The notes beneath the pieces are model-generated. The model did no database searches, was not told where the DNA came from, and saw only the letters and a list, made by a program, of their open reading frames with translations. Shown here one piece after another: positions 55,034 to 63,591 of a stretch of DNA of 64,000 nt. Every line of letters starts with the position of its first letter. Position 1 is the stretch's first letter. Location: the NCBI RefSeq assembly GCF_017876775.1, contig NZ_JAGIOP010000002.1:2604001-2668000 (forward strand), in the 5' to 3' direction. This stretch comes from Mycolicibacterium lutetiense. Lineage in GTDB: Bacteria > Actinomycetota > Actinomycetes > Mycobacteriales > Mycobacteriaceae. A program made the translations under genes and the position numbers.

Positions 55034-55702
55034 ATGACGGAAAGCTGGGGTTCGGTGCTCGCCGAACTGATCCCACTGGCCATGGTGGTGGCCCTGTCGC
55101 CGCTGTCCATCATCCCGGCGGTGCTGGTGCTCCACACACGTCACCCCCGACCGACCGGCCTGACCTTCCTCACCGGATGGCTCGTCGGCCTGGCCGCACT
55201 GACCACGATCTTCGTCGGCGTCTCCAGCATGCTCGGCGGGCTCAACGCCACCCCGACGTGGGCCTCGTGGTTACGCATCGTGGTGGGCGCTGCCCTCATC
55301 GTGTTCGGCGCGTACCGCTTTCTCACCCGGGAAAAATCGGAGCACATGCCCGGCTGGATGACCGGCCTCAGCAAGCTCACGCCCGCCAAGGCGGGAGCTG
55401 CGGGCCTGGCCCTCACCGTGGTGAACCCGAAGGTGCTGTTCATCTGCGCAGCAGCAGGATTAGCCATCGGTAGCGCCGGCCTCGGCCAGCCCGGGGTATG
55501 GGCGGCAGGGCTCTACTACGTGCTGGCGGCCGGATCGACCGTGGCTCTGCCGATCCTCGCGTATGCAGTATCGGGTGAGCGGCTGGACCCAGCGCTGGCC
55601 CGACTCAAAGACTGGATGGAACGCCAGCACGCCGTGTTGATCGCCGCGATTCTCGTCGTGATCGGCCTCCTCGTGCTCTATAAGGGAATTCACGCGTTAT
55701 AG
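55034..55702 (+). CDS. GAP-family (Sap-like) membrane protein
   Basis: 222 residues, six membrane segments. Family features are an N-terminal VVALSPLSIIPAVLVLHTRHP with conserved Pro residues and a central KAGAAGLALTVVNPKVLFIC, as in the peptidolipid-addressing GAP/Sap proteins of mycobacteria that help export glycopeptidolipids or sulfolipid. The cargo here is unknown. It is divergent from clpB and shares its regulatory region. Confidence 0.82.
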   Translation: MTESWGSVLAELIPLAMVVALSPLSIIPAVLVLHTRHPRPTGLTFLTGWLVGLAALTTIFVGVSSMLGGLNATPTWASWLRIVVGAALIVFGAYRFLTREKSEHMPGWMTGLSKLTPAKAGAAGLALTVVNPKVLFICAAAGLAIGSAGLGQPGVWAAGLYYVLAAGSTVALPILAYAVSGERLDPALARLKDWMERQHAVLIAAILVVIGLLVLYKGIHAL

Positions 55703-55739
55703 GCGCCGCATTCGGTGCAGGTCGGGCTACGGTGTGCGC

Positions 55740-56363
55740 ATGTCCGAATACGGTTTCGGTGATTTCGAATTCGAGCGGAAGTTCTTTGTCCGCGAATTGC
55801 CCGCAGTGGCAGCATCGGATCCCACACCAGCGCTGATCGTCCAGGCCTACCTTTTCGCGTCCGACGGATATGCGGTTCGCGTCCGCGTCCAGGGTGCCGC
55901 TCCCGCCGCATTGGATGCCACCCCCGCCGAGCTCGTAGAGAGTTTGGGCGAGGGATCGCTGGGAACCATGACCGCCAAAGGTCCCGCCGTCGGGGGCACC
56001 CGCTATGAGGCCGAACGCGAACTCGATCCACTGGTCGCGGCCCAGATCGTGCGCCGGTCCGAACATGTGATCGCCAAAGTTCGCTATTCGATGTGGCTCG
56101 GCGAGGACGGCTGGATCATCGACCAATTCCTCGGCCGAAACGCACCCCTGCTGCTCTCCGAAGTCGAGCGCGGTGGGCCAGTCGTCGATCTGGCCATTCC
56201 GTCATTCTGCGTTTCCGAGGTTTCCGAGGATGACCGGTTCCGCAACGAGTATCTGGCGCACAAGCCATTCGGCACCTGGGCCGACGAGTACCGGCGTGAA
56301 CTCGACCGCCGCGGACCCAGCTTTGTGGAGTCCTTGGGCCAGAATCAGTTTGAGGGCAGTTGA
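55740..56363 (+). CDS. CYTH-domain protein, putative triphosphate-binding enzyme
   Basis: 207 residues from ATG 55740. The N-terminal EFERKFFV (ExExK) starts a CYTH beta-barrel; RVRVQ, TAKGP, YEAERELD, KVRYSMW and WIIDQFLG, LLLSEVER supply the alternating charged residues that bind triphosphate and metal. CYTH proteins include inorganic triphosphatases and thiamine triphosphatases. No CHAD domain is attached or adjacent. The IS3 element starts 32 bp after its stop; the gene itself is intact. Confidence 0.84.
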   Translation: MSEYGFGDFEFERKFFVRELPAVAASDPTPALIVQAYLFASDGYAVRVRVQGAAPAALDATPAELVESLGEGSLGTMTAKGPAVGGTRYEAERELDPLVAAQIVRRSEHVIAKVRYSMWLGEDGWIIDQFLGRNAPLLLSEVERGGPVVDLAIPSFCVSEVSEDDRFRNEYLAHKPFGTWADEYRRELDRRGPSFVESLGQNQFEGS

Positions 56364-56449
56364 GCGACGGGGCTTCTCCGTCTGGGGCAAGTGAATGAAT
56401 CACCCCGGGTTTGATGCACACCTTCTTTCGAGGGAAGGTAGTTCGCATC

Positions 56450-56761
56450 ATGCCGAAGAGATACGACGAGGAGTTCAAGGCCCGAGCGGTCCGGTTGGTC
56501 ACTGACCATCTCGAGGAGTACGACACCCGCACCGCCTGCATCACCGCGGTCGCCAAGCGGTTGGGAGTGTCCTACGAAACGCTGCGGCGGTGGATCAACC
56601 AAACTGAGGTCGATACCGGGGTCCGCGACGGGGTATCCACCGACATCTCGCGCGAGAACCGGGAACTCAAGCGTAAGAATCGTGAGCTTGAGGAAACGAT
56701 CGAAATCCTCAAGGCGGCAACAAGTTTCTTCGCGCGGGAGAGCGACCCGCGACGCCGTTGA
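56450..56761 (+). CDS. IS3-family transposase OrfA
   Basis: 103 residues from ATG 56450. Helix-turn-helix DNA-binding protein (RYDEEFKARAVRLV, RLGVSYETLRRWI) followed by a leucine-zipper-like helix (ENRELKRKNRELEETIEILK), as in IS3 OrfA. It ends in FFARESDPRRR and overlaps orfB by 4 bp in the -1 frame, so an OrfAB fusion would require programmed frameshifting; no clear A6G slippery run was seen. Confidence 0.92.
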   Translation: MPKRYDEEFKARAVRLVTDHLEEYDTRTACITAVAKRLGVSYETLRRWINQTEVDTGVRDGVSTDISRENRELKRKNRELEETIEILKAATSFFARESDPRRR

Positions 56762-57402
56762 TCTGTGCGTTCATCGCCGAGCATCGTGCTCGGTTCGGGG
56801 TCGCTCCGATCTGCCGCGTGCTCACTGAGCACGGCTGCAAGATCGCTCCGAGAACCTTCTACGCCTGGCTGTCGCGGCCCCCGTCAGCGCGGGCCTTGTG
56901 GGACACCGTCATCACCGAGGTGATGGCCGGCTACTACGAGCCCGACGAGGCGGGCCGCCGCAAGCCGGAGTCGTTGTACGGCGCGGTCAAGATGTGGGCT
57001 CACCTGCAACGCCAGGGCATCACGGTGGCCCGCTGCACCGTGGAACGCCTCATGCGGGCCAACGGATGGCAGGGGGTGACCCGGCGCAAAAAGGTCCGCA
57101 CCACGATCGCTGACCCGGCCGCAGCCCGCGCTGCGGATCTGGTCAAACGCCGGTTCCGGGTGCCCGCCCCCAACATGCTGCTCGTCGCCGATTTCACCTA
57201 CGTGCGACTCGCCTCTGGGGTGTTCGTCTACACCGCGTTCGCCATCGATGCCTACGCGGGGCGGATCGTGGGCTGGACGTGCTCGGCCAGCAAGGAGGAT
57301 CGGTTCGTACGCCAAGCCATCCGGCACGCCGCGCTACTCAGAATGAGTCAGGGCAATCCGTTGCTGGGCAACACTATTCATCATAGTGATGCGGGGTCGC
57401 AG

Positions 57403-58881
57403 GGCGGATTCAACTGGTCGTCGCAACACCTTGATCACGGAGGTGTGGTGTGGCCAAGCGTAAGGACGCGGAATCGGTTGGTAGGCGACGGCAGTGGGCG
57501 GCTGACCGTGCGTTGCGGCCTGCGATGCGCTCACCAGGGCGCCCGGACCCGTCGCGGTCGGTGCAGCGTCAGTTTTGGCGGCTGATCGCCCAGGGTGTCT
57601 CCACCGACGACGCAGCCGCAGAGGTCGGCGTGTCGACACCGGTGGCGACCAGGTGGTTCCACCACGCTGGCGGCATGACGCCGATCAGTCTGGATGAGCC
57701 CACGGGCCGGTATCTGTCGTTCGCCGAGCGGGAGGAGATCGCACTGCTACGCGCCCAGGGCGCCGGGGTGCGTGAGATCGCCCGCGAGATCAAGCGTGAC
57801 CCCTCGACAGTTTCGCGGGAACTGCGGCGCAACGCAGCCACCCGCAGCGGCACGCAGGTGTACCGCGCAGGGGTGGCGCAGTGGAAGGCCCAGCAAGCAG
57901 CAAAGCGCCCGAAACCCGCGAAACTGGCAGTCAACCCGCAGCTGCGTGAGTACGTGCAGCAGCGGCTCGATGGCAGTGTCCGCGGACCCGACGGCACCGC
58001 CGTCGCAGGTCCGCAGACCAAGGCCTGGAACGGCCGCAACAAGCCGCACCGACAAGACCGACGGTGGTCGACAGCATGGAGCCCGGAACAGATTGCCCAC
58101 CGCTTACCGCTGGATTTCCCCGATGATGAGTCCATGCGCATCAGCCATGAGGCGATCTATCAGTCCTTGTTCATCGAGGGGCGTGGGGCGCTCAAACGGG
58201 AATTGGTCGCGTGCCTGCGGACCGGTCGTGCGCTGCGGGTCCCGCGGGCCAGGACACAGAACAAACCGCAGGGACATGTCACCGCGGACGTCGTGATCAG
58301 CAAACGCCCTGCCGAAGCCGCCGATCGCGCAGTTCCTGGGCATTGGGAGGGTGATTTGATCATCGGTGCGGGCCGGTCGGCGATTGCCACCGTGGTGGAA
58401 CGCAAGAGCCGCTCGGTGATGCTGGTTCACCTTCCCCGCCTCGAGGGGTGGGGTCTGGCGCCGCCGGTGAAGAACGGGCCGGCGCTCAGCGGCTACGGCG
58501 CCGAGGCGATGAACGCTGCCCTGATCGCCTCACTGGCACAGCTACCCAAGCAGCTGCGTCAGACGTTGACATGGGACCGCGGCAAAGAGTTGGCCGCGCA
58601 CGCCCAGTTCACCTTCGACACCGGAACGAAGGTGTTTTTCGCCGACCCGCACTCGCCATGGCAGCGGCCTACCAACGAGAACACCAATGGCGTTCTGCGT
58701 CAGTACTTTCCGAAAGGCACCGACTTATCTCGATGGTCGGCTCAAGACCTCGAAGCGGTCGCACTGACGCTCAACAACCGACCCCGAAAGGTCCTCGGCT
58801 GGAAGACTCCCGCCGAAGTCTTTGCCCAACAGCTACACTCACTCCAACAACCCGGTGTTGCAACGACCGATTGAACCCGCC
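57403..58881. mobile_element. IS30-family insertion sequence
   Basis: 1,479 bp. The left end GGCGGATTCAACTGGTCGTC and the inverted right end GGCGGGTTCAATCGGTCGTT continue to a common GCAACACC, 24 of 28 positions identical. The direct repeat CAG at 57400-57402 and 58882-58884 is the target duplication. It holds one transposase gene. The intact ends and exact duplication point to recent insertion into the IS3 copy. Confidence 0.94.
57450..58874 (+). CDS. IS30-family transposase
   Basis: 474 residues, GTG start with GGAGG upstream. N-terminal helix-turn-helix regions (YLSFAEREEIALLRAQGAG, IKRDPSTVSRELRRN) and the IS30 DDE core: first Asp in PGHWEGDLIIG, second in LTWDRGKELAAH, Glu in PTNENTNGVLRQYFPKGTDL. 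All catalytic residues are intact, so the element may still be active. The C-terminus reaches into the right inverted repeat. Confidence 0.95.
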   Translation: MAKRKDAESVGRRRQWAADRALRPAMRSPGRPDPSRSVQRQFWRLIAQGVSTDDAAAEVGVSTPVATRWFHHAGGMTPISLDEPTGRYLSFAEREEIALLRAQGAGVREIAREIKRDPSTVSRELRRNAATRSGTQVYRAGVAQWKAQQAAKRPKPAKLAVNPQLREYVQQRLDGSVRGPDGTAVAGPQTKAWNGRNKPHRQDRRWSTAWSPEQIAHRLPLDFPDDESMRISHEAIYQSLFIEGRGALKRELVACLRTGRALRVPRARTQNKPQGHVTADVVISKRPAEAADRAVPGHWEGDLIIGAGRSAIATVVERKSRSVMLVHLPRLEGWGLAPPVKNGPALSGYGAEAMNAALIASLAQLPKQLRQTLTWDRGKELAAHAQFTFDTGTKVFFADPHSPWQRPTNENTNGVLRQYFPKGTDLSRWSAQDLEAVALTLNNRPRKVLGWKTPAEVFAQQLHSLQQPGVATTD

Positions 58882-59302
58882 CAGTACACCTCGGTGCGGT
58901 TCGGAGAAACCCTGTCCCTGTCGGGGCTGATCCCGTCAATCGGAACGGTCGGGGACGCCTTCGACAACGCCCTGGCCGAAACGACCATAGGGCTGTACAA
59001 AACCGAAGCCATCCGCGACGACTCGCCATTCCGACGGGGCCCGCTGCAACGGCTGGCCGACGTCGAGATGCTCACCGCCGACTGGGTGCACTGGTACAAC
59101 ACCGATCGGCTCATGCACCGCCTGGGCCGCATCCCACCGACCGAATACGAGGCCATCTACTACGCTACAAACACAGCCCAACCAGAGGCTGCACACCCAT
59201 AACCACGTGTGCATCAAACCCGGGGCGATTCAGAATCCACACCACGGATAGCATCGACGAAACTGGTGCGGCCGATCTTGGCAGACACGAAGGGGCCGAA
59301 TC

Positions 59303-60085
59303 ATCGACAACAACGCTCCAACGCCTGGGACACCCGGGCCGCCCGGCTGGTTCGCCGACCCCTGGAATGCTCAGCAGCTGCGCTACTTTGACGGCCAACA
59401 ATGGACCAGTCACACCGCTCCGACGTCTGAGGCACCTTCCGACTACGCCTGGGATACCGGTTATCCGTTTGGGGAACAGGTCCTGATCCTGCGGGCCATC
59501 GCGACGCCATCGGACGCCAGCATCATGTGCGGCGTCGAGAACGCCCGCGGCCAGCACATCGGATTGATTCAACCGACGACGAAGATTGGCTGGATCACTC
59601 GGGGAACCGAGGGGATGACGTTAGTGATGACTCGTCCCGACGGGGCGCCGTTGCTGTACTTCACCAGCTCCGGGGCGTACACCGGACTATCCATCCAGGT
59701 GCATGACGCCACTGGACAGGACTTGGGGCGTCTCCGTCGAGGTGGCTCGCGCTGGCGCATCTACACCTTGACGATGGAGCTGGAGTTTGACGGACAACGT
59801 CTCGGACGGTCCAATATCGGCACCACCATCATGCAAATGGACAAGAAGGTCCACGAACCGATTTACGATGCAGCCGGCGCAGTGCTCGGCCACGTGGATC
59901 GCCGCTGGCACCCCAACACGGGATCACGCAATCCGCATTACGACTACACACTGGACTGCTGCGCGCGAACATCACACCCGCTCCCCGCGCTGATGCTGAC
60001 TACGGCCTTCGCGCACTACATGTATGACCGGATCCAGATAGGCGGTCCGTTTGGCGGAACGCGCTGGCCGTCCCGGAACAATTGA
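59303..60085 (+). CDS. DUF2510 + LURP-one/scramblase-like protein, paralog 1 (apparent AUC start)
   Basis: About 260 residues. Residues ~12-40 are a DUF2510 domain (GWFADPWNAQQLRYFDGQQW); the rest is a tubby-like LURP-one/scramblase-type beta domain (LGRLRRGGSRWRIYTLTMEL) ending in TTAFAHYMYDR. The only ATG/GTG/TTG in this frame is at 59525, after the DUF2510 domain. A stop at 59249 closes the frame upstream. ATC 59303 (or 59300), a few bases after AAGGGG, is the most likely start, matching the same context in paralog 2. Function unknown. The IS3 element ends 70 bp upstream. Confidence 0.7.
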   Translation: MDNNAPTPGTPGPPGWFADPWNAQQLRYFDGQQWTSHTAPTSEAPSDYAWDTGYPFGEQVLILRAIATPSDASIMCGVENARGQHIGLIQPTTKIGWITRGTEGMTLVMTRPDGAPLLYFTSSGAYTGLSIQVHDATGQDLGRLRRGGSRWRIYTLTMELEFDGQRLGRSNIGTTIMQMDKKVHEPIYDAAGAVLGHVDRRWHPNTGSRNPHYDYTLDCCARTSHPLPALMLTTAFAHYMYDRIQIGGPFGGTRWPSRNN

Positions 60086-60130
60086 TGGGAACGCGCATTC
60101 CAACCGCGCTTGCGAAGCCGGGCACCGAGA

Positions 60131-60166
60131 TTGGTGCGACGAGGCGCCTCAGCGCGCTGTTAGGGT
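60131..60166 (+). promoter_or_regulatory. Candidate promoter of the EspC-like gene, second cassette
   Basis: TTGGTGC at 60131-60137, then N17, then CGCTGTTAGG at 60155-60164. It contains an extended -10, TGT-TAGGGT (hexamer 60161-60166). The same bipartite signal with the same spacing occurs at 62166. Predicted leader of ~80 nt before the ATG at 60253. Confidence 0.55.
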
Positions 60167-60252
60167 CTCCTCCAAGACGGGAGTGAATGCCTGCAGATGT
60201 GGCACTGGGACCGAGGTCGCCACCAACTGCGAACACGCACAAGGAGAAAAGC

Positions 60253-60570
60253 ATGTCCGGCGAACTGCGCGTGATTACCTCACACGTGCTCGAACTTGCA
60301 GAGCGACAGAACACCGCCGCACAACAAATCCTCGCGGCCGCCGCTGCGTCGCACGGCGTCAGCACGTCAATGATGGTCAATCACGGCGTCGTCTGCTCAG
60401 CGGCCAACGCGGCCGTCGCAGCGGCAGAAGCAGCACGGGCTGCTGCCTGCGCTGGTTTGAACTCCGTTTCGAACAGCCTGTCGAGCCGACTGGGGCTGGC
60501 AGCGTCACGTTACGACCAGTCCGACACGCAAGAGGCGGGCAAACTCGGTAAAGAGATGCATCCACGCTGA
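60253..60570 (+). CDS. EspC-like (DUF2580) ESX secretion-associated protein
   Basis: 105 residues from ATG 60253, behind AAGGAG. Two-helix EspC type: LRVITSHVLELAERQNTAAQ, a central NHGVVCSAANAAVAAAEAAR, and the C-terminal LAASRYDQSDTQEAGKL with the YxxxD export signal. In M. tuberculosis EspC is encoded beside EspA and EspD and exported with them by ESX-1. Here the next gene is EspD-like. There is no ESX core gene in the window. Confidence 0.85.
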   Translation: MSGELRVITSHVLELAERQNTAAQQILAAAAASHGVSTSMMVNHGVVCSAANAAVAAAEAARAAACAGLNSVSNSLSSRLGLAASRYDQSDTQEAGKLGKEMHPR

Positions 60571-60670
60571 GACCACTACCAGCTGGCAACTTCGTCAGCG
60601 GTAACGTTCGAATCAAAGGCAATTGTCTCGGCTCGCGCCGGCCGTCGATCAGAATCGGGACTTCAGATAC

Positions 60671-61258
60671 GTGACCACACACGATCCGGACGATGAGTTC
60701 TTCCACTCCGACGACACGGGTTTGGATGCGCTCGACTTCGACACACCACCCCAACCCGACGATGGCGGGTCGGGAATTGACGCACTGCCGGAATACTCCG
60801 TAGGCGAAATCGACCAGGGAACCAGCCTCGGAGGTGTAGACGACTTCACCGGCGCTGACGTCGAAGACGATGAGGACGACGTTTTCGGCGCGGTCGAGAC
60901 CGACGCGGCTACCGCGGACGAGGCAAAGGGCCCCGTGGTCCAGGCGATCAACCCGCCGGGCACCGTCTCGGTGACGGCCTACCTCGGCGGGTCGGTCGCC
61001 CAGGTCGATCTGGATCCAAAGGTAACCACCTTGACCGAATCCCAACTGGCTGAAGAGATCCGGTTCGTGGCAGGCGTGGCGGCCACGAAAGCTACGGCTG
61101 CCGTGCATGTCGGCGTGGTGAACATGCTCGTCGAGCAGGGCATGGATCTGCGCGACGCGCGGGATTTCGTGGAGACCAACATGCCGTTCGCCACACCGGA
61201 ACAGGCCCACGAGGCCGACGTTGCGCTCATCGCACGGCACACCGAGCGCGAAGACTGA
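60671..61258 (+). CDS. EspD/EspH-like ESX accessory protein
   Basis: 195 residues from GTG 60671. The first ~95 residues are strongly acidic and low-complexity. The C-terminal half matches EspD-type proteins in order: VQAINPPGTVSVTAYLGGSV, LDPKVTTLTESQLAEEIRFV and AATKATAAVHVGVVNMLVEQ, which corresponds to NPPRTVSVS and MSESQLASEI of M. tuberculosis EspD (recalled, not searched). EspD stabilises and co-exports with EspA and EspC. It lies 100 bp after the EspC-like gene and 13 bp before paralog 2. Confidence 0.8.
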   Translation: MTTHDPDDEFFHSDDTGLDALDFDTPPQPDDGGSGIDALPEYSVGEIDQGTSLGGVDDFTGADVEDDEDDVFGAVETDAATADEAKGPVVQAINPPGTVSVTAYLGGSVAQVDLDPKVTTLTESQLAEEIRFVAGVAATKATAAVHVGVVNMLVEQGMDLRDARDFVETNMPFATPEQAHEADVALIARHTERED

Positions 61259-61271
61259 CCGAGGGGCGACC

Positions 61272-62081
61272 ATCAACGAAAGCGTGCCACCACCGCCGCA
61301 GGCGGGATGGTTTACCGACCCTTGGAACACTCATCAGATCCGGTACTTCGACGGCAGGCAGTGGACAGCCCACGCGGCATCTGGTCCGCCGATGCAACCG
61401 CCGACCGCGGCCAAGGTCCCTGCCCCGCCGCTGACTTCAGGCGGGTACCCGTTCGGGGAACCCACTCTGTTCCTCCAACCAATCCGCGGTGAAGCGGGCT
61501 CCGATATCCGTTGCTCGATTACGAACCCGCGTGGGCAACTACTCGCGTTGGTCCAACTACTGAAAGCACCCCCCCTGGGGGCTGAGGCAATCAGCGAACT
61601 CGTATTCGAGGTCGTTCGGCCCGATGGAACCCAACTGCTGCGGTTCATCCGATCCGTTGGATTCGCGGGTCGTGGCAAACATCGTCTGCACGTTCACGAC
61701 CCCGACGGCCGTGAACTCGGTTGTCTTCGGCAGACCAGCTCGTATTGGCAATACTTCCGAACCCCCAAAATTTCGTTCGAGCTCGAATATCAGGACCAAT
61801 CGCTAGGCGCCACCAAAATACGTTCCTATATCCCCAAGTTCACCAAGTTGGAACTCGACGAACCGATCTACGGCACCAGTGCAGAGATCGGGCGGGTACA
61901 TAGTCAACGGAACCAATCCAAGCTCGAAGCCATGTTCATGTACGCGACCTTCGATTACCGGCTCGACTGTGCGCATCCCACGTCACCACCAATACCTACG
62001 CTGCTGCTGGCCACCACTTTTGCACATTTTCTGTATGACCATCTCGATTCGCTAGCGCCGTTCTCGCGGTGGGCCCGATGA
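61272..62081 (+). CDS. DUF2510 + LURP-one/scramblase-like protein, paralog 2 (apparent AUC start)
   Basis: 269 residues if started at ATC 61272, five bases after GAGGGG. Other starts are worse: TTG 61221 lies inside the EspD-like gene and GTG 61284 is 17 nt from the Shine-Dalgarno sequence. DUF2510 domain at ~13-38 (AGWFTDPWNTHQIRYFDGRQ), then a LURP-one/scramblase-like domain (RLHVHDPDGRELGCLRQTSS, LDEPIYGTSAEIGRVHSQ) ending LLATTFAHFLYDHLD. Clear paralog of the protein at 59303 with many shared positions. Function unknown; adjacency to Esp genes suggests a role in type VII secretion or membrane effects. Confidence 0.8.
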   Translation: MNESVPPPPQAGWFTDPWNTHQIRYFDGRQWTAHAASGPPMQPPTAAKVPAPPLTSGGYPFGEPTLFLQPIRGEAGSDIRCSITNPRGQLLALVQLLKAPPLGAEAISELVFEVVRPDGTQLLRFIRSVGFAGRGKHRLHVHDPDGRELGCLRQTSSYWQYFRTPKISFELEYQDQSLGATKIRSYIPKFTKLELDEPIYGTSAEIGRVHSQRNQSKLEAMFMYATFDYRLDCAHPTSPPIPTLLLATTFAHFLYDHLDSLAPFSRWAR

Positions 62082-62165
62082 GTGTCCCGTCGGCCTGGAC
62101 ACCAGCCGTCAGTGCATCCAGTGTTGCCCCAGAGAACGCCAAAGGCGCGTTCGGAACACCCAAAA

Positions 62166-62201
62166 TTGGTGCATAGCAACATGTTGAGACGCTGTTAGGC
62201 T
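62166..62201 (+). promoter_or_regulatory. Candidate promoter of the EspA-like gene
   Basis: TTGGTGC (62166-62172), N17, CGCTGTTAGG (62190-62199), identical in sequence and spacing to the signal at 60131. Extended -10 TGT-TAGGCT, hexamer 62196-62201. The rest of the gap 62082-62230 holds nothing else recognisable. Confidence 0.55.
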
Positions 62202-62230
62202 CACCTCAACGAAGGAAGGGCCAGACAAGA

Positions 62231-62950
62231 ATGAGCTTTTGGGATGCCGCGGAGAAGGTTAGCAAGACTCTCAGCAAGAGCGACGAGTTGAGCGATCTCG
62301 GGGATGCCAACACTCTGTGGTCCACGAAGTCTCATAACGATGCCGGGGACAAGCTCGGGCTGGGTTCCGACGCAATCGGGCTCGTGCAGATGCTCATCGG
62401 GAAATCTGTCGCAACCCCCATCATCAATGTCGGCCTGTTGGGCATCCAAGGTATGACTCTCACTTGCGGAATCGGCAATCCGGATACTGGCGACAGGTTC
62501 GGGCAGGGCGCAGAGCAGTTGGGCCAAGTCCATGACACCCTGGAATCAGCGAAGCCGACCGCTGGATGGCAAGGAGGCGCCTCGCAGGCCTACACAGGGC
62601 AAGATGCGAAGCAGCAGGAACGTGCGCGCGAGATCGCAGAAGCGGACAAGGCCTTGGAAGCAATCGTGCGCAAGCAGGCGAATCAAATCGATCAGACGCG
62701 CTCGTTTCTTGGTACCTGCGCGACTGTGCTGGGCTATGCGATCCTGCCCGCAATGATTGCGAAGGTCTCCGGTCCGCAAGGTCCTGCTGTCGCAATGGCG
62801 ATCGAGATAGGCGCGGTCGCCGGCTCTGTGCCTCTCGCTGCCGGACAGATGTCGGCGATGTCCGCCAAGTCAGCAGCAAATGCTGTCGAGGTAGGGAAGG
62901 TGATCGGGCAATACACCAAGGTGGCAGCAAGCGCGACGTTCGGCCAGTAG
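62231..62950 (+). CDS. EspA/EspE-family ESX substrate-like protein
   Basis: 239 residues, ATG behind AAGGAAGGG. The core compares with EspA: GWQGGASQAYTGQD against EspA's GWLGSAADKYAGKN, then REIAEADKALEAIVRKQANQ and IDQTRSFLG against the EspA helix with DLDRQL and QANAVQTTR (recalled, not searched). The WxG plus YxxxD (YTGQD) are consistent with type VII export. A hydrophobic stretch (~165-205) follows and the protein ends soon after, without EspA's long Gly-rich tail. With the EspC- and EspD-like genes it completes an espACD-type set. Confidence 0.78.
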   Translation: MSFWDAAEKVSKTLSKSDELSDLGDANTLWSTKSHNDAGDKLGLGSDAIGLVQMLIGKSVATPIINVGLLGIQGMTLTCGIGNPDTGDRFGQGAEQLGQVHDTLESAKPTAGWQGGASQAYTGQDAKQQERAREIAEADKALEAIVRKQANQIDQTRSFLGTCATVLGYAILPAMIAKVSGPQGPAVAMAIEIGAVAGSVPLAAGQMSAMSAKSAANAVEVGKVIGQYTKVAASATFGQ

Positions 62951-62961
62951 GAACCGACCAC

Positions 62962-63591
62962 CTACAGCTCCGGCAACCCCAGCTCACCCGCATCGGCGGT
63001 GAGGTAGCGGGTCACGGTCGGCGCGAGCAGTCGCACGATGTCGTCACCGTCGAGTGTCGCCAACGGCGGGACCTCCATCACGTAGCGCAGCATCGCGGTA
63101 CCGACGAGGCTCGACGCGGCGAGCATGGCCCGCAGCCGAGCCTGCTCACCGCCACCCAGTACGCCTGACACCGCGGCGAGCACGTAATCCTGCATGAACG
63201 TTCGAAATGCCACGTGCGCATCGGAATTCGACGTCGCGGACTGCAGCATGACCCGCATGCTGGCTGCGGTGTCAGGCGCCTCCCACATCTTCAGATAGAC
63301 GCGCACCATGCGCTCGCCGACCTCCCCCTCCGACCCTTCCAAGGCACCCACCAGCACGGCGGGATCGAGGATCAGCCGGAGCGATTCCCGGAACAGGTCG
63401 GCCTTCGAGCCGAACAGGTAAAGCACCATCGACGCGTCGACGTTCGCGTCGGATGCAATCCCGCGCAGTGTCGTCTTCTCGTAGCCCTCGGCGGCGAAGC
63501 GGAGCTTGGCAGCCGCCAGCACGGCGTCGCGAGACACCGGGTCACCCTGGCGCCGCCCGCGGCGTGTAGCAGTTTTCCCAGGTGAAGCCAT
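62962..63591 (-). CDS. TetR-family regulator
   Basis: 209 residues, ATG at 63591. N-terminal helix-turn-helix (SRDAVLAAAKLRFAAEGYEK, TTLRGIASDANVDASMVLYL) and a TetR ligand domain of the C-terminal type found in actinobacterial members. Divergent from the membrane-protein gene at 63692; two related operators lie between them. It probably represses both genes until a ligand binds. It converges with the esp-like locus 11 bp away but need not control it. Confidence 0.9.
   Translation of the reverse strand: MASPGKTATRRGRRQGDPVSRDAVLAAAKLRFAAEGYEKTTLRGIASDANVDASMVLYLFGSKADLFRESLRLILDPAVLVGALEGSEGEVGERMVRVYLKMWEAPDTAASMRVMLQSATSNSDAHVAFRTFMQDYVLAAVSGVLGGGEQARLRAMLAASSLVGTAMLRYVMEVPPLATLDGDDIVRLLAPTVTRYLTADAGELGLPEL

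Follow-up and report, generated by a model that had tools for sequence, protein, structure and literature searches.

An EspA–EspC–EspD-type locus of Mycolicibacterium lutetiense with a putative scramblase/tubby-superfamily partner and an apparent AUC start codon

Organization of the locus

The window analysed here is a stretch of 64,000 nucleotides from Mycolicibacterium lutetiense (GCF_017876775.1, contig NZ_JAGIOP010000002.1, positions 2,604,001 to 2,668,000 of the forward strand). It contains five genes on one strand (Table 1), in which members of the EspC/EspF, EspD/EspH and EspA/EspE families alternate with two paralogs, P1 and P4, that join a DUF2510 domain to a predicted barrel of the tubby/LURP-one/scramblase type. 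On sequence grounds we tentatively read the locus as a substrate module of the EspA–EspC–EspD type with a scramblase/tubby-superfamily partner, and the partner genes appear to share a conserved AUC start. An earlier note, made from the letters of the window, had proposed the five open reading frames, and all of them are open. Its EspC-like and EspA/EspE-like calls are borne out by the profiles PF10824 and PF18879, and DUF2510 is present in both paralogs (39.8 and 34.7 bits for PF10708, with a cut-off of 24). The EspD-like call stands by kinship (39% identity at 9e-19 by tblastn to the gene that occupies the espH position in the ESX-1 locus of this genome, L097) but not by Pfam, where no match exceeded the cut-off (DUF2694, 0.061). 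The gene order, P1, espC, espD, P4, espA, is not the espA–espC–espD order of an espACD-type module. The YxxxD/E motif is present in 32 of 34 aligned stretches of the EspC family. The ESX apparatus that the note had placed elsewhere in the genome corresponds to an ESX-1-type locus 0.58 Mb away. Apart from P1 and P4, the genome gave one weak DUF2510-region match (2.4e-4).

Table 1. Features of the window and genomic sites of the promoter-type motif (SD, Shine–Dalgarno sequence; IS, insertion sequence; G000, genome of the window)
Feature	Position	Strand	Details
SfLAP (Sap-like) gene	55034–55702	+	PF11139, 2e-59; recurrent neighbour by synteny
Conserved gene	55734–56363		209 residues; no match in Pfam or NCBIfam; other species often retain it next to SfLAP
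IS3-type element interrupted by IS30-type transposase gene	56403–59225	+	NF033516 (part, below cut-off), NF033563
P1, DUF2510 and tubby/LURP-one/scramblase-type barrel (predicted)	59303–60085	+	260 residues; ATC start; SD AAGGGG upstream; PF10708, 3.8e-10
AGATTGGTGC, one-mismatch copy of AAATTGGTGC	60128–60137	+	upstream of espC
EspC/EspF-family gene	60253–60570	+	105 residues; PF10824, 5.9e-24; YxxxD is YDQSD, residue 87
EspD/EspH-family gene	60671–61258	+	195 residues; acidic, pI 4.1; C-terminal half perhaps YbaB-like
P4, second DUF2510 and barrel paralog (predicted)	61272–62081	+	269 residues; ATC start; SD GAGGGG; PF10708, 1.4e-8
AAATTGGTGC motif, then TANNNT box	62163–62172	+	upstream of espA; one of 10 exact sites in the genome
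EspA/EspE-family gene	62231–62950	+	239 residues; PF18879, 4.8e-25; WQG (WxG) and YTGQD (YxxxD)
TetR-family gene	62962–63591	-	PF17920/PF00440; recurrent neighbour by synteny
AAATTGGTGC sites before espA/espE-type, EccD and WXG100-like genes	G000 C1:1269381; C2:2007587, 3223421, 3253283, 3266820; window 62163–62172		

Recurrence in other genomes

We searched 396 genomes of the genus (a drawn sample) with profiles and read stretches of up to 20 kb by tblastn and iterated profiles, whose E-values are inflated since the profiles were iterated on the same loci. Matches at E of about 1e-11 or better were followed; weaker ones were mostly DUF2510 alone, and G182 (L057) and G008 (L058) enter no count. 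The search returned at least 30 DUF2510-barrel genes in at least 21 genomes. Two or more of the families espA, espC and espD are represented in the stretches of 27 of the 30, and one or more in those of 29, a linkage that exceeds chance. An EspA_EspE match is found in all 21 partner-bearing genomes versus 245 of 392 genomes in the family scan (Fisher p = 7.5e-5, kinship ignored).

Two outcomes had been named in advance as speaking against such a module, namely that no product would match an Esp family in structure and that the five genes would not be found together in other genomes. Neither came about: the Esp matches, by sequence profiles, are those given above, and the order P1–espC–espD–P4–espA recurs in L060 and, with P1 split by a frameshift, in L062 (M. 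frederiksbergense). The set espC–espD–P4–espA without P1 occurs in L024, L063, L065 and L066, P1–espA–espC–espD in L067, and P1–espA–espC–P4 plus a second esp set in L064. The interleaved one-strand layout described in the note is present in the window, and barrel and esp genes also lie on one strand in the fortuitum group, but the interleaving is a local form: in 11 other loci (L068–L077 and L086) the barrel gene and espA point away from each other across an intergenic region that they share. Eight of these 11 have the order espA–espC–espD, which is seen altogether in L067–L069 and L072–L077; espD was not recovered in L070, L071 and L086.

Barrel genes lacking DUF2510 are esp-linked in L091–L093, and L066 has another about 3 kb away from its esp set. 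A separate clade of eight such genes has no esp gene in its stretches, except for an espC-type gene about 9 kb from the barrel gene of L079. Seven of the eight (L079–L084 and L090, not L094) have a coupled gene of about 100 codons downstream of the barrel gene, whose product is hydrophobic at its C-terminus in the five sequences inspected, and the six of L080–L084 and L090 lie near genes that cluster with the Mce- and MPAB-type genes of L082. The DUF2510-barrel gene of an M. alvei plasmid (L059/L078) lies near TerD, AIM24 and tellurium-resistance-type genes.

Domain, fold and kinship of the barrel proteins

The model of P4, the only one of the two proteins that was modelled, displays a 12-stranded barrel with a C-terminal helix, the arrangement that defines the Tubby C-terminal/scramblase superfamily. 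The tubby/LURP-one domain claimed in the earlier note agrees with this model and extends to P1 through 37% identity with P4, but it has no Pfam support: Scramblase PF03803 gave no match over the cut-off for either window protein in the Pfam scan. Proteins combining DUF2510 and Scramblase are known from another family of the order too, and the same profile exceeds its cut-off in all three relatives scanned from one other family. A tubby/LURP-one/scramblase fold of P1 and P4 is a supported prediction, resting on VIA-align and on relatives. PF10708 matches all 23 members of set A2 at E ≤ 1, and the Pfam scans of the barrel proteins show no DNA-binding domain. The YxxxD/E matches of P1 and P4 sit in the barrel or its C-terminal helix and not after a helix-turn-helix; only the one in GYPFGE is common to both. 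A recent tandem duplication as the origin of the pair is ruled out by the tree, which places the paralogs in two old clades, the P1 orthologs forming a clade of their own.

Start codon

The positions at which P1 and P4 had been taken to begin, 59303 and 61272, are ATC codons. P1 has no ATG, GTG or TTG between the upstream stop and the DUF2510 motif. The energies of the anti-SD duplex are -8.3 for the ATC of P1 and -7.0 for that of P4, and the ATG codons of espC and espA in the window have -8.3 each; the alternative start of P4, a GTG at codon 5, reaches only -0.3. Starts were scored in 31 DUF2510-barrel genes, comprising the 30 above and that of M. senegalense (L024). An ATC, ATT or ATA codon (ATH; ATT and ATA are rare) stands 10 to 16 codons before the DUF2510 tryptophan in 25 of them (the two window genes and 23 more in L024, L060–L071, L076–L078, L086 and L087). 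These 25 codons have energies of -5.7 to -12.7, with 22 at -6 or below. For comparison, 335 ATH codons from the interior of these genes average -2.6, and 10% of them reach -6 or lower. Four genes (L072, L073, L075 and L085) have an ATG or GTG 7 to 10 codons before the tryptophan, and two are ambiguous (the second copy of L071, and L074). From the upstream stop to the tryptophan, nine of the 31 are free of ATG, GTG and TTG codons (the second copy of L060, the first copies of L061, L062, L064 and L071, the genes of L067, L076 and L078, and P1 of the window).

An ATC at the corresponding place, with energies of -6.0 to -11.7, is also found in seven of the eight members of the DUF2510-less clade (L094 is without it). 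In relatives from family f16, seven of eight loci show an ATG or GTG at nine codons' distance ahead of the tryptophan, and the eighth gave no frame. On the tree, at least three changes between ATH and canonical starts are needed over the 38 scored of 47 rows; nine rows are unscored, and the second half of the broken L062 gene and L089 were scored as ATH. The DUF2510-barrel genes appear from these sequences to share a conserved AUC start; if it is real, mycobacteria would have in it a rare case of a non-canonical start that is conserved.

Non-canonical starts with an extended SD are reported to give about 10% of AUG output in Staphylococcus aureus in poor medium, and three genes of that organism, infC, cvfC1 and ccpN (which encodes a repressor), are reported to be held at low output by such starts (PMC13009471). 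The infC-like combination of no canonical start, a strong SD and conservation is found in P1 and its family. The likeness to the three S. aureus genes consists of a conserved ATH start with a strong SD, and the present case differs in its AUC codon, its occurrence in mycobacteria and in an esp-linked family, and in being known from sequence alone. Databases hold P1-type versions of 155 to 211 residues without DUF2510 (P0023, P0024, P0026 and P0027, three of them named hypothetical protein), for which an AUC start, if real, offers a reason; in this way the module would escape annotation-based surveys.

Promoter-type motif

The motif AAATTGGTGC upstream of espA, or a near variant, also stands upstream of other espA copies, about 20–26 bases before a TANNNT box (spacing judged by eye). 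The genome contains 10 exact sites versus two for the reversed control. Four of the 10 precede espA/espE-type genes, one an EccD gene (TIGR03920, 1.9e-63), one a gene whose product carries a hydrolase domain and has a WXG100-like start (below cut-off) and one a DUF4190 gene; for the other three, no clear gene start follows (by eye). Among 50 sites with at most one mismatch, 24 have an esp or barrel match less than 330 bases downstream, in loci that had been chosen for such genes. This distribution suggests that AAATTGGTGC marks a shared regulon of type VII secretion system (T7SS) genes, for which WhiB6, an ESX-1 regulator (PMC6343904), is a candidate only.

Proposed role and alternatives

Our preferred reading, which we hold tentatively, is that the DUF2510-barrel protein is a low-dose membrane adaptor of the Esp module. 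EspC and EspA would presumably be exported through the ESX-1 apparatus of the genome, and EspD would remain in the cytosol and stabilize them. The DUF2510-barrel proteins would be intracellular and work at the inner leaflet of the cytoplasmic membrane, with membrane lipid bound by the barrel and a protein partner by the small DUF2510 domain, so that together they might hold or present Esp substrates at the membrane. Small amounts of the protein may suffice, with the conserved AUC start enforcing the low dose. A broader and somewhat more doubtful proposal is that such proteins form an accessory class of T7SSs in many mycobacteria, in which a low-dose scramblase/tubby protein (AUC start, discriminated by IF3) ties the loading or expression of EspA and EspC to the state of the cytoplasmic membrane or of translation. 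The conserved partner, a protein of predicted lipid-type fold that occurs in rapid growers, offers a tractable handle on how EspA, EspC and EspD support ESX-1 secretion and envelope integrity.

Several observations weigh against the adaptor and the module to which it is assigned. With the P4 model, Foldseek returned nothing at E ≤ 0.001, and the 50 matches listed include no tubby protein. Five of the 25 ATH-start genes (the first copy of L060, the second of L062, and L068–L070) also have an upstream canonical codon with an SD energy of -6 or below. YxxxD/E is present in only 11 of 34 aligned stretches of the EspA family, and of the nine EspA-type places in the genome only that of the window has a barrel partner. 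L061 (G348) still has P1 and P4, but of its esp genes a remnant of espD is all that is left, espC and espA being lost, and the plasmid copy of M. alvei (L078) is without any esp gene. In the window itself, the IS element 77 bp before P1 may cut P1 from upstream transcription. The divergent layout of the 11 loci suits a regulator equally well.

A membrane-tethered regulator, that is, a tubby-type protein that leaves the membrane or switches partner upon secretion or a lipid change and alters esp expression, is somewhat unlikely in our view; we rank it close behind the adaptor in view of the divergent arrangement and of the start codon, which is of the type reported to keep expression of infC, cvfC1 and ccpN low (PMC13009471). 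The superfamily has also been proposed to comprise membrane-tethered transcription factors, judging by the title of Bateman (2009) as cited in PMC10584680. Such a role fits poorly with the lack of a DNA-binding domain in the Pfam scans, with the placement of the barrel genes inside the module and on the same strand in the fortuitum group, and with the occurrence of AAATTGGTGC before esp and T7SS genes lacking a barrel partner.

The other explanations are less likely than either the adaptor or the regulator. An immunity-like self-protection, in which the barrel protein shields its producer from membrane-active Esp or ESX products by binding or repairing the inner membrane, would suit a membrane-lipid fold tightly linked to substrate genes, and loss of espACD is reported to make M. 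tuberculosis more sensitive to SDS, with EspA tied to cell wall integrity (PMC2891827); it is nevertheless improbable, given the eight EspA-type places of this genome without a partner and the 245 of 392 genomes with EspA_EspE matches as against at least 21 of 396 with the partner. Slightly less probable still is that the slot between SfLAP and TetR gathers esp and unrelated genes and that the barrel genes are passengers, as the use of the same chromosomal slot in many loci, the IS elements and rearrangements nearby and the retention of a single part in some loci (L061 and L089) might suggest. The linkage holds, however, in L087 and L091–L093, whose stretches have no SfLAP or TetR match, and across proteins that are often only 28–42% identical to P1. 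The stronger suggestion of the earlier note, that the barrel protein is itself secreted as a lipid-active effector, draws on its linkage to families of secreted substrates and is the least probable of all, considering where the YxxxD/E matches of P1 and P4 lie.

Relation to known systems

The espACD operon of M. tuberculosis, which we take to be Rv3616c–Rv3614c, likewise holds EspA-, EspC- and EspD-type genes together and away from the ESX-1 locus. Compared with its description, the window adds the DUF2510-barrel genes, has an EspA-type protein of only 239 residues and shows the order C, D, barrel, A. Within the ESX-1 locus of this genome, the block espE–espF–(espG)–espH also unites EspA/E-, EspC/F- and EspD/H-type genes but lies directly beside eccA1/eccB and has no barrel gene. 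An espACD-like operon of three genes has been reported in two rapid growers, Mycobacterium sp. TNTM28 and M. fortuitum, and the part of that report available to us mentions no DUF2510 or barrel gene (PMC8217490); its relation to the window locus is putative, the EspD-type protein of TNTM28 (P0146) being 48% identical to that of the window. In contrast to PF03803 scramblases and LURP-one (1zxu), the window proteins have no match to these families in Pfam, are esp-linked and apparently start at AUC.

Among the papers listed by our literature searches, nothing turned up on a DUF2510/scramblase partner of esp genes or on the AUC start; one review (PMC13243786) mentions scramblase, type VII secretion and EspA together. 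The library searched gave no paper on DUF2510, alone or with LURP-one or mycobacteria. Within that literature, the statement that no system of this composition had been described holds; the EspACD-type module is already known, and its scramblase-superfamily partner, previously unremarked there, looks like an overlooked accessory part.

Flanking elements and other Esp and ESX loci

The IS3-type element upstream of P1 has perfect inverted ends of 19 bp (by eye). A small contig of 113 kb in the genome carries a plasmid-like ESX locus (G000:C3:85001–105000, L105) with its own EccB, EspC-type and DUF2694 genes. In another genome of the genus, a dozen EspA_EspE matches lie within 45 kb (G236:C1, about 6.37–6.41 Mb).

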